Shown piece by piece: positions 27,952 to 33,273 of a stretch of DNA of 64,000 nucleotides. The DNA lies in assembly GCF_024723825.1 (NCBI RefSeq), contig NZ_JANQBQ010000001.1, forward strand, positions 434,001 through 498,000. The letters run 5' to 3'. Origin of the DNA: Romboutsia lituseburensis (GTDB lineage Bacteria > Bacillota > Clostridia > Peptostreptococcales > Peptostreptococcaceae). Made by a program: the position numbers and the translations under genes. The notes beneath the pieces were generated by a model. It saw only the letters and a list, made by a program, of their open reading frames with translations. It searched no databases and was not told the DNA's origin. Every line of letters begins with the position of its first letter. Positions within the stretch are counted from its first letter, which is position 1.

Positions 27952-29067
27952 TTAACCTAATCTAAATAATGATTCCGAAATTTTATCGCTTGCTTCTGAA
28001 TCCATTTCTTTAAGTGCATGAGCATATATATTAAGTGTTGTATTAATATTAGAATGTCCAACTCTTTCTGATATAACTTTTATTGGAACTTTTGAGTTTA
28101 TAAGTAACGTAACATGAGAATGTCTAAGATCATGAAATCTTATATGTTCTAAATTATGTTCTAATAAAAACCTACTAAATTTTTTACTAATTACATCTTG
28201 AGCTATAGGGTGTTCATTCTTATCAAAAAAAAGTAAATTTAATTTATTCTTAGCTTCTCTTTTTAATTTTAATTCAAGTTGTGATTTTTTATGATTTTTT
28301 AACATAATCATAATTTCACTGGGTGCAGAAATAGTTCTTTCAGATGTTTCAGTTTTGGGATTTTTTAAAATAACTTGTCCGTTATCTCTAACTGTAATCT
28401 TATCTATTGTTATAGTGTTTTCGCTAAAGTTTATATTATCCCATGTTAAACCTAATATTTCAGAAATTCTTAGCCCTAGCCCACTAGCTAAGTGAATATA
28501 TAATTCTAGGTGTGTTCCTTTTGAAATCTCCAATAACTTAATTAAATCGTCTCTATTATATATATTATTTTTAAACTTTTTTATCCTAGGTACATCTATA
28601 CAATCAACTACATTTTCTCTTATTATTCTTAATCTATAAGCTTTTTTTAGTGCTAAATTTAATATGTTTATATGTACTTTTATAGTTTGAGGAGTGAGTA
28701 TTCCGACTAAATCATCTACGTAGTCTTGAACATGAACAGGCCTTAACTCATTCAATCTGTAATGACCTAGCATAGGAATTAGGTACTTTTTACAAATGCG
28801 TAAGTAACAATTATAAGTAGTTATAGATAAATTCACCTTATGCTTTTCTAAAAAATCAATCAAAAATTTTTCTAGATTCATTGAATCTGGGGAAGCTAAT
28901 TTATCGTTATAAATGCTATCTCGAAGTTCACTTAGCTTCTTAGAAGCATCTCTTTTTTTCTCAAATGACCCCATATTTTTTTGCTTATTTTTACCGGTAG
29001 TACTATCCTTATATTCTAAATAAACTATGTAATTTTTACTTCTTTTTCTTATAAATGCAAAACTCAT
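27952..29067 (-). CDS. phage-type tyrosine recombinase (integrase)
   Basis: The 371-residue protein has an N-terminal Arm-binding-like region (KRSKNYIVYLEYKDSTTGKNKQKNMGSF), a SAM-like core-binding domain at about 65-160, and a catalytic domain. The latter has R in GLGLRISEILGLTWDN, H and R in FHDLRHSHVTLL, H in VGHSNINTTLNIYAH and the nucleophilic Tyr in that same stretch, so all active-site residues appear present. It is a Tn916/phage-type integrase. No excisionase, replication gene or capsid genes are next to it, and flanking genes are ordinary chromosome. It is therefore the last gene of a decayed element or a lone integrase. Confidence 0.9.
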   Translation of the reverse strand: MSFAFIRKRSKNYIVYLEYKDSTTGKNKQKNMGSFEKKRDASKKLSELRDSIYNDKLASPDSMNLEKFLIDFLEKHKVNLSITTYNCYLRICKKYLIPMLGHYRLNELRPVHVQDYVDDLVGILTPQTIKVHINILNLALKKAYRLRIIRENVVDCIDVPRIKKFKNNIYNRDDLIKLLEISKGTHLELYIHLASGLGLRISEILGLTWDNINFSENTITIDKITVRDNGQVILKNPKTETSERTISAPSEIMIMLKNHKKSQLELKLKREAKNKLNLLFFDKNEHPIAQDVISKKFSRFLLEHNLEHIRFHDLRHSHVTLLINSKVPIKVISERVGHSNINTTLNIYAHALKEMDSEASDKISESLFRLG

Positions 29068-30980: not shown

Positions 30981-31002
30981 AAGCGGCTCAAAAGCCGCTT
31001 TT
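30979..31002. terminator. bidirectional terminator between LRR and YitT genes
   Basis: AAAAGCGGCT / AGCCGCTTTT GC-rich stem between convergent genes. Confidence 0.9.
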
Positions 31003-31862
31003 TAATTTTCAAGTTTTTTGAAACCTTCTCCTAAAACTTCATGAACATTACTTACAATTATAAATGCAGATGGATCTGCTGTTTTAACAAGCTTTTTCAA
31101 ATAAACTTCCTGGTTCTTTGATACTACAACTAGAAGAACTTGCTTTTCTTCATTTGTATAACCACCTCTACCATCTAGTACCGTAAGTCCTCTATCTAGC
31201 TCTCTAGTTATGACGCTTTTTATATCGTCAGAATGATTTGATATTATAAAGAATGCTTTTGAATAATCGAACCCTTCCATTATAGCATCAGCTACTTTTA
31301 CAACCACGTACAATGCTATAGCAGAATAAAGTGCTATTTCAATATTTTGACTAGCTATTCCTGAAGATATAACTACAAATGCATCTAAGCAAATCATAAA
31401 TTTTGTAGGCTTTATACCAGGGAATTTTTTACTTAATATTAAAGCGATTAAATCTGTACCTCCTGTAGATGCATCAACCCTAAACATAATGCCAATACCA
31501 ATACCTAATAATATTGCGCCAGATATAGATGACAATAATAAATCATTAGTAGCCCCTAAATCAGCTAGTGGAGAAGTAACATTTACTATTAGTGAAAATA
31601 AAACAGTTCCAACTAAAGTTTTCACTGAATTTTTACTACCTAATATTTTAAATGCAAATATAACTAATGGAATTCCTATTAATAACATTATCGCTGAAAC
31701 CGATATCCCAGTGGCTTTATTTAAAACAACAGATAAACCACTAAGTCCTCCGGGAGCAATAGTATGAGGTTTTAAAAACGTATTTATACCAACTGCCATT
31801 GATATACAACCTATAATCAAACCTAAAAATTCAATTAGACCCGTAACCCTTTCTTTTTTCAT
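31002..31862 (-). CDS. YitT-family membrane protein
   Basis: The 286-residue protein has about five hydrophobic segments in the first 200 residues and a C-terminal ferredoxin-like domain. PHTIAPGGLSGLSVVLNKATGIS near residue 32 and RVDASTGGTDLIALIL near 128 are duplicated half-signatures of the DUF161 membrane domain. The tail LTVLDGRGGYTNEEKQVLLVVVSKNQEVYLKKLV is the DUF2179 domain. The substrate is unknown. AGGAGG precedes the ATG. The gene is convergent with the LRR gene and shares its terminator. Confidence 0.88.
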   Translation of the reverse strand: MKKERVTGLIEFLGLIIGCISMAVGINTFLKPHTIAPGGLSGLSVVLNKATGISVSAIMLLIGIPLVIFAFKILGSKNSVKTLVGTVLFSLIVNVTSPLADLGATNDLLLSSISGAILLGIGIGIMFRVDASTGGTDLIALILSKKFPGIKPTKFMICLDAFVVISSGIASQNIEIALYSAIALYVVVKVADAIMEGFDYSKAFFIISNHSDDIKSVITRELDRGLTVLDGRGGYTNEEKQVLLVVVSKNQEVYLKKLVKTADPSAFIIVSNVHEVLGEGFKKLEN

Positions 31863-32180
31863 TAAAATTCCTCCTAAGATGCCTAGATTATTTACATTAA
31901 TATATTATATCAACAAAATATTGCACAATCAAACATTATTAGATAAATTTCACCTAAATAAACATATTGTTTATTAATATATAATTTGGGTATATTAATA
32001 ATAACAAAAACTAATTTTTACCATATTATGGACAAAAATGTTACTGAAAAGATCATTTTATGTTAAAAAAATTTACTTTTTGGAAAAAAATTATATAAAT
32101 GGTAAAAATCGATTGATTATATACCTAATAAAAGTATATAATATATATGAATTTAAGAAAATTTGAAAGGAAATGATGAT
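31863..32180 (+). other. 318-bp region between yitT-type gene and the selenoprotein gene
   Basis: Nothing is seen but AT-rich sequence, the divergent gene's ribosome binding site and a probable promoter of the selenoprotein gene at its 3' end. Confidence 0.55.
32113..32142 (+). promoter_or_regulatory. putative promoter of the HesB-like selenoprotein gene
   Basis: TTGATT, 18-bp spacer, TATAAT; 38 bp upstream of the ATG. Confidence 0.5.
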
Positions 32181-32501
32181 ATGAAGGTTACTTTACCAGA
32201 AACAGCGGTTAAAACGTTAACAGACATCTTAAAAGATAACCAAGATAGACCTAATAATATAAGAGTTTATTTTGCAGGTGTTGGCTGAGGCGGTCCATCA
32301 TTTGGAATTGCTCTGGATGAGCAAAAGGCTGACGATTTAGAATATGATGTAGAAGGACTACACTTTATAATGAGTAGTGATGATTTTAATAAATATGGAA
32401 ACATAGTTATAGAAGACACTGGCTACGGATTTAGAGTAGCTCCTGAAAACATGCAAGATGAAGGTGGATGTGGCGGAGGATGCTCTGGCTGTGGTCACTA
32501 A
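32181..32501 (+). CDS. HesB/IscA-like selenoprotein (Sec36)
   Basis: The frame is one long coding region of 106 residues interrupted by a single in-frame TGA at 32286-32288. Read as selenocysteine, it gives AGVGUGGPSFGIALDE at residues 32-47. Sec36 occupies the first conserved Cys of IscA/HesB-type Fe-S carriers. The C-terminal GGCGGGCSGCGH supplies the other cysteines. A bacterial SECIS hairpin begins 19 nt after the UGA. AAAGGA lies before the ATG and a strong terminator follows. HesB-like selenoproteins are known from Clostridia; no selA/B/C/D is in this window. Reading the TGA as a stop would leave two short meaningless pieces. Its probable role is Fe-S or electron handling, by family only. 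Confidence 0.9.
32308..32324 (+). promoter_or_regulatory. bacterial SECIS element
   Basis: TTGCTC-TGGAT-GAGCAA hairpin, 19 nt after the UGA. A guanine is the second base of the apical loop, as SelB needs. Confidence 0.8.
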
Positions 32502-32504
32502 AAT

Positions 32505-32548
32505 AAAAAAGAGTATTAGCTTGAAAGCTAATACTCTTTATTTTTTTT
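32505..32548 (+). terminator. terminator of the selenoprotein gene
   Basis: AAGAGTATTAGC / GCTAATACTCTT stem, loop TTGAAA, long T run. Confidence 0.9.
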
Positions 32549-32634
32549 TAGTATTAATGTATTATAAAAGGATAGTGCATTATTATAAAATAAATAAAGC
32601 ATTAATATAGAATATAATTAATAAGGAGCTAGAC

Positions 32635-33273
32635 ATGAGAAGAAGAAAAGTAAAAGGTGCAGATCAAAAACTTTTAAGTTACACAGATTATGTACTTAGA
32701 GATGACATAAATGAGTTAAAAGGTAAATGGAATGAAAAGTTTAAAAATAATAATCCTATATATGTAGAGTTTGGTACAGGTCGTGGAAAATTTATAACAA
32801 CTTTAGCTAAGCAAAACCCAGATGTAAATTATATTGCTTTTGAAATAAAAGAAGAAGTATTAATAAAGGCTGTTGAAAAAGCAGATGAATTAAAGTTAGA
32901 TAATATATTATTTGCTTGGGCAGATGTTAGCAATGTACTTGATTACTTTGAAGAGGGAGAATTATCAAGAATTTATGTTAATTTCTGTGATCCTTGGCCT
33001 AAGAAAAGATGGGCTAAAAGAAGATTAACTCATTCTAACTTCTTAAATAAATATAAGTTATTATTAAATAAAGATGGTGAGGTTCACTTTAAAACAGATA
33101 ATGAAAAATTGTTTGAATTTAGTTTAAATGAAATATCTGGTAATGATTGGACTCTTAAGAACATATCTTTAAACTTGGCTGAAAGTGATTTTGAAAATAT
33201 TACAACAGAATATGAAGATAAATTTATGTCATATGGTATGAAAATTTTTAGATGTGAAGCTAGAAAAAGATAA
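32635..33273 (+). CDS. trmB: tRNA (guanine-N7-)-methyltransferase
   Basis: The 212-residue protein begins RRRKVKGADQKL and has the SAM site YVEFGTGRGKFIT near residue 43. The family-specific NFCDPWPKKRWAKRRLTH near 120 and HFKTDNEKLFEFSLNE near 152 follow. It methylates G46 of tRNA to m7G. AAGGAG precedes the ATG. Length equals that of Bacillus TrmB. It follows the selenoprotein gene after its terminator and is transcribed alone. Confidence 0.96.
   Translation: MRRRKVKGADQKLLSYTDYVLRDDINELKGKWNEKFKNNNPIYVEFGTGRGKFITTLAKQNPDVNYIAFEIKEEVLIKAVEKADELKLDNILFAWADVSNVLDYFEEGELSRIYVNFCDPWPKKRWAKRRLTHSNFLNKYKLLLNKDGEVHFKTDNEKLFEFSLNEISGNDWTLKNISLNLAESDFENITTEYEDKFMSYGMKIFRCEARKR

Follow-up and report, generated by a model that had tools for sequence, protein, structure and literature searches.

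The 64,000-nucleotide window of the Romboutsia lituseburensis genome analyzed here almost certainly contains, at positions 32181 to 32501, a gene for a HesB-like protein into which selenocysteine (Sec) is inserted. The insertion itself, at codon 36, is predicted as securely as sequence can make it, and we consider it nearly certain. As the preliminary description had read it, the frame has 106 codons with a single in-frame TGA at codon 36; with TGA translated as Sec (U) it gives MKVTLPETAV...RVYFAGVGUGGPSFGIALDEQ...DEGGCGGGCSGCGH (Table 1). Under translation table 11 no open reading frame of at least 60 amino acids is listed at this locus, so plain gene calling would miss the gene, as had been anticipated. 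The promoter, ribosome binding site and terminator that had been claimed around the gene were all located, and the promoter and terminator are also kept in near orthologues. Because the terminator stands between the two genes, the TrmB-type gene downstream is probably a separate transcript. A phage-integrase-family recombinase gene lies about 3 kb upstream (27952-29067, reverse strand), and similar proteins (cluster c8) turn up close to the HesB-trmB locus in a number of genera. An Rfam scan of the 64-kb window returned zero matches over the gathering score.

Table 1. Features of the HesB-like selenoprotein gene and its neighbors, in window coordinates
Feature	Coordinates	Strand	Remarks
HesB/IscA-like selenoprotein gene	32181..32501	+	106 codons plus TAA
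In-frame TGA, predicted Sec36, at the first ligand Cys position of IscA/HesB	32286..32288	+	Aligned with the Cys codons of Cys homologues and the GCSG Cys of HI1723/IscA-type proteins
Promoter-like TTGATT-18-TATAAT	32113..32142	+	10/12 consensus matches; position kept in near Sec orthologues and some Cys copies
Ribosome binding site GAAAGGA	32165..32171	+	AGGA (32168-32171) 9 nt ahead of ATG; GAAAGGAAATGAT conserved in orthologues
bSECIS hairpin TTGCTC-TGGAT-GAGCAA	32308..32324	+	Apical loop 32314-32318; kept in Sec forms, missing in Cys forms, covarying stem
C-terminal tail GGCGGGCSGCGH	32463..32498	+	Cys 97, 101, 104; disordered in model, pLDDT under 50
Intrinsic terminator, 14-bp stem (32508-32539) plus T-tract	32508..32549	+	Strong; folding z -5.25
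TrmB-type methyltransferase (Methyltransf_4), neighbor	32635..33273	+	Marks the orthologous position in genomes with either the Sec or the Cys form
YitT-family membrane protein, divergent neighbor	31002..31862	-	Often kept on the other flank in relatives

A hairpin with a G in its loop had been described 19 nt downstream of the TGA, and it stands there, with arms at 32308-32313 and 32319-32324, a 6-bp stem and a 5-nt UGGAU loop that starts 25 nt after the UGA and carries G at loop positions 2-3. Published bSECIS rules give a loop of 3-9 nt, a stem of 4-16 bp, a G at loop position 1 or 2 and a spacing of 16-37 nt (PMC13188914), and the hairpin agrees with all of these. The energy quoted for bSECIS is -7.5 kcal/mol (PMC13188914); the bare hairpin (-6.8 kcal/mol) falls just short of this value and the 45-nt region (-11.9 kcal/mol) goes beyond it. 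Compared with shuffled sequences, the folding energy is no better (z -0.7 to -1.1). As this single-sequence measure is not significant, it was set aside in favor of the comparison of relatives, on which the significance of the hairpin rests. In a simple synonymous-codon simulation with rough, hand-set codon weights, 1.7% of draws produced a 6-bp stem at the site and 0.09% produced the exact core. When the whole genome was searched for the exact pattern TGA-N14-26-GCTCTGGATGAGC, the HesB-like gene was the only match, so this core is no marker of the genome's other selenoproteins. The hairpin of selD in the same genome differs from that of the HesB-like gene.

Relatives were found in 64 of the 71 genomes of the family, and R. 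lituseburensis DSM 797 (Peptostreptococcaceae, Clostridia) is 98% identical at this protein. Across 102 Clostridia homologues the codon at the Sec site is TGA in 52, Cys in 49 and Ala in one, and the alignment with the Cys homologues and with the GCSG Cys of HI1723/IscA bears out the proposal that the TGA takes the place of the first IscA/HesB Cys. Close relatives, in which by the preliminary description a true stop or the lack of a conserved hairpin would have told against the Sec reading, keep both the TGA and the hairpin, and neither TAA nor TAG occurs at the Sec codon in the rows compared. In more distant relatives the codon is Cys and the hairpin is gone. The orthologues of the two forms often occupy one locus, directly before a TrmB-type gene and often with a YitT-type gene on the other flank, and are therefore alternative states of one gene. 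In several genomes (G014, G033, G034 and G048-G051) a Sec copy and a Cys copy lie close together.

The hairpin goes with the TGA. Within the family, an exact GCTCTGGATGAGC stands at a fixed distance, 21 nt downstream of the TGA, in 24 of 33 TGA rows and in 0 of 39 Cys/Ala rows. The hairpin core contains the rare Leu codon CTG in 27 of the 33 TGA rows, compared with 2.1% of the Leu codons in the rest of these genes; at the same site in Cys/Ala rows CTG accounts for 0 of 38 Leu codons (Fisher p 1e-14, computed on rows that are related and hence not independent). The core peptide A-L-D-E is largely identical in TGA and Cys/Ala rows, and the constraint thus acts on the codons. Across Clostridia, the 4-bp stem can form in register in 44 of 51 distinct TGA rows versus 2 of 48 others, and a TGGA(T/C) loop is present in 45 of these TGA rows versus one other. 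The stem also covaries: 26 cells changed on both sides, where shuffling gives an expected 7.5, and 91% of cells are paired versus 30-61% for slid partners. The pair variants are UA/GC/AU at the second position, GC/GU/UG/AU/UA at the third and CG/UA at the fourth.

The preliminary description had staked the Sec reading on the sel genes as well. The source genome (3.93 Mb, high completeness) has selD, selA, selB and tRNA-Sec (anticodon tca), grouped at one locus within about 13 kb, and selD itself is Sec-coding, with an in-frame TGA (...TTSGGUAAKIGP). This locus and the HesB-like gene are unlinked and lie in different parts of the genome. Because 67 of the 71 family genomes have a SelA match over the cut-off, co-occurrence with SelA is only weakly informative. 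In three genomes that lack any SelA match (G046, G069 and G070) the HesB-like copies are all of the Cys form, which is consistent with Sec insertion, although three are too few for a test.

Two other readings of the TGA have to be weighed against this evidence. If the TGA were a true stop, the locus would be a pseudogene or encode a truncated peptide of 35 residues; TGA does mean stop under table 11, and in folding energy the hairpin is unremarkable when one sequence is taken by itself. However, the TGA, the hairpin and the downstream coding are kept across many genera, purifying selection acts on the codons after the TGA (between Sec orthologues dN/dS is about 0.06-0.16) and the sel machinery is complete. 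We rejected the true stop as already contradicted by the comparison of relatives and consider it highly improbable. The conserved full-length coding fits any kind of read-through, including one by near-cognate Trp or general suppression that would bypass SelB. Yet TGA alternates with Cys in all rows but one and never with Trp, and the hairpin goes with TGA and is missing with Cys. Read-through of this kind was likewise rejected, and we give it next to no weight. The sel genes and the alternation of TGA plus hairpin with Cys and no hairpin instead support the earlier proposal that Sec is inserted at the UGA.

The two best NCBIfam models for the protein are IscA_HesB_Se (NF038090) and HesB_rel_seleno (TIGR01911). 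With Cys substituted for Sec, it scores below both curated cut-offs (48.9 < 66.35 and 61.9 < 85). Another Sec member with the UxGP motif also misses both (50.5 and 74.1), and one tree groups the below-cut-off UxGP Sec members with L118, a member over the TIGR01911 cut-off. We therefore treated the cut-offs as annotation thresholds and not as a defining trait, and the gene is, with membership taken in the wide sense only, a divergent, tailed branch member of the known HesB-like (TIGR01911/NF038090) selenoproteins. Its U36-G-G-P39 is the UxGP listed as the motif of these selenoproteins (PMC13188914).

Against PF01521 the protein scores 18.6 bits, below the cut-off of 26.3, and no PF01521 member over the cut-off was found in the genome. 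A search of the family profile against the PDB matched HI1723, AQ_1857 and IscA and placed the Sec/Cys column on the GCSG cysteine. The AlphaFold2 model has a confident core (mean pLDDT 86) and a disordered tail, and its best Foldseek matches are IscA, HI1723 and SufA (E 1e-5 to 1s98, TM 0.70-0.75). The predicted fold is thus of the IscA/SufA type, with Sec occupying the position of ligand Cys 1. The tail had been described as Sec-Cys-rich, which is loose: the Cys-rich tail is present, but the Sec lies in the core domain and the tail holds Cys alone. Its motif is CxxxCxxC (C97, C101, C104) and not the CGC of IscA.

The same genome also contains a Cys paralogue at C1:2885606, a second TGA-containing paralogue (L127) and a remote HesB-fold paralogue without the Sec/Cys residue (C1:3424130-3424405; RIVTKRESIFEKGRLDFTFD). 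L127 (C1:842711-843019, reverse strand) reads GITUNGAVFYVTLDE around its TGA, and ACTCTGGATGAG lies in the region after it, with a stem requiring a bulge. The tail of L127 has no C-terminal Cys and ends in ...WKDEYHY, as do its relatives L081, L082, L085 and L086.

We built a tree from 102 rows and 110 columns with the Sec/Cys site masked. It splits (support 99/89) into a tailed branch of 78 rows and a tailless branch of 24. All 78 tailed rows have at least three Cys in the last 18 residues, and their site is Sec or Cys, with one Ala. All 24 tailless rows are Sec forms with at most one tail Cys, present in 21 of them. The tree needs 10-11 Sec/Cys changes, at least 8 of them forced by well supported branches, a count that gives no direction. 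Direction is suggested in individual cases. For instance, a Cys orthologue of genus g10 (L033) is placed among Sec forms and retains a decayed hairpin, GCCCTAGATGAGC, and for these reasons is likely a Sec-to-Cys change. The Sec forms of genus g11 (L055, L056 and L060) keep the TGA with a differing hairpin, TTGGTCTA-GCTT-TAGATCAG, whose loop lies 21 nt after the TGA, and a sequence from another family (L107) has a TCTA-GTTT-TAGA hairpin at the matching place. As the tree places these copies among Cys forms and their hairpin is not the usual one, a Cys-to-Sec change with a newly evolved SECIS may have taken place. A 2006 survey counted two Sec-to-Cys and no Cys-to-Sec events for the HesB-like family (PMC1794560).

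Two further copies were recorded in the course of this comparison. The Ala copy (L054, 3526-3846, in G058; GVGADGP) stands in tandem beside a Sec form and is fast-evolving, with the hairpin missing and the tail still Cys-rich. Genome G051 has two identical Sec copies about 108 kb apart (L048 and L049, at C5:1989667 and C5:2097332).

As to mechanism, the hairpin just past the UGA would recruit SelB and Sec-tRNA-Sec for the insertion of Sec at residue 36, where, judging from the alignment and the predicted fold, Sec would stand in for the first cysteine ligand of A-type iron-sulfur carriers. The selenolate and the cysteines of the flexible CxxxCxxC tail could then bind iron, an Fe-S cluster or another soft metal, which would be handed on in the manner of an A-type carrier. 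The chances that the protein is such an IscA-like metal or Fe-S carrier appear to us evenly balanced. In the genome of this anaerobe no canonical A-type carrier scores above the Pfam cut-off, and the protein may occupy the A-type niche there. Replacement of the IscA CGC by CxxxCxxC counts against carrier function, and no isc or suf linkage was noticed near the gene; the neighbors in relatives were clustered and in part annotated. The HesB-like selenoprotein of M. maripaludis was identified via mutagenesis and 75Se labeling, and its function was called not clear (PMC11097638); nitrogen fixation was not impaired in a disruption mutant (unpublished observation quoted in PMC11097638), which also weighs against the carrier role. 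A more ambitious proposal is that the tailed branch forms a subfamily of its own, whose members bind metal or Fe-S through the selenolate together with a mobile CxxxCxxC tail, that Sec and Cys have switched repeatedly and in both directions in this branch, including Cys-to-Sec with a new hairpin (the GCTT-loop type of g11 and one f45 genome), and that these proteins are the main A-type carrier of these anaerobes. Taken as a whole, it seems to us rather unlikely.

The main rival to a metal carrier is a thiol-selenol redox protein, with Sec36 as the nucleophile and the tail cysteines either resolving a selenenylsulfide or serving as the substrate. Such a role is conceivable, if somewhat doubtful. 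Nearly all forms, the tailless branch included, have a C-terminal Cys beside the Sec, and a redox function is assumed for most uncharacterized prokaryotic selenoproteins (PMC13188914), but the fold is that of IscA and not thioredoxin-like, the motif is UxGP and not UxxC or CxxU, and the Sec sits exactly at the metal-ligand Cys position. The flexible Gly/Cys-rich tail, with its cysteines conserved throughout the tailed branch, could also be a sink, in a protein that binds or delivers selenium or sulfur or binds heavy metals or metalloids. This we think unlikely: the gene is not linked to the sel genes, and genomes that lack a SelA match still carry homologues, of the Cys form only, as would not be expected if the role were specific to selenium.

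Lists published in 2005-2006 already included HesB-like selenoproteins of Clostridia (PMC1242214, PMC1794560), and the gene is thus a sound but largely expected find. Modestly new are the supported split into tailed and tailless branches, the at least eight Sec/Cys exchanges and the finding that no canonical A-type carrier in the genome exceeds the Pfam cut-off. Among the papers found on Romboutsia with selenocysteine, none concerns this protein, judged by title or the start of the abstract. Automatic annotation tends to drop genes of this class; this one has a UGA inside its frame and falls short of both curated models in score. For a specialist, the useful results are the series of Sec/Cys switches and the division into tailed and tailless branches; the closely related Sec and Cys versions, some in tandem in one genome, would permit a direct test of the benefit of selenium to a protein resembling A-type carriers.

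The protein shares with the described HesB-like selenoproteins the UxGP motif, Sec at the first HesB Cys, a bSECIS and an occurrence in anaerobic Clostridia and Deltaproteobacteria (PMC1794560, PMC13188914), and differs in its Gly/Cys-rich CxxxCxxC tail, which the branch of L118-like members lacks. With the A-type carriers IscA, SufA and ErpA (PF01521) it shares the predicted fold and the position of ligand 1, whereas it has Sec for Cys 1 and a CxxxCxxC tail in place of their C...CGC. Cys-form homologues of the Peptostreptococcaceae (for example the L037 group, L023 and L029) are 73-75% identical and have the same locus before the TrmB-type gene and the same kind of tail, but carry a Cys codon for the TGA and are missing the hairpin.
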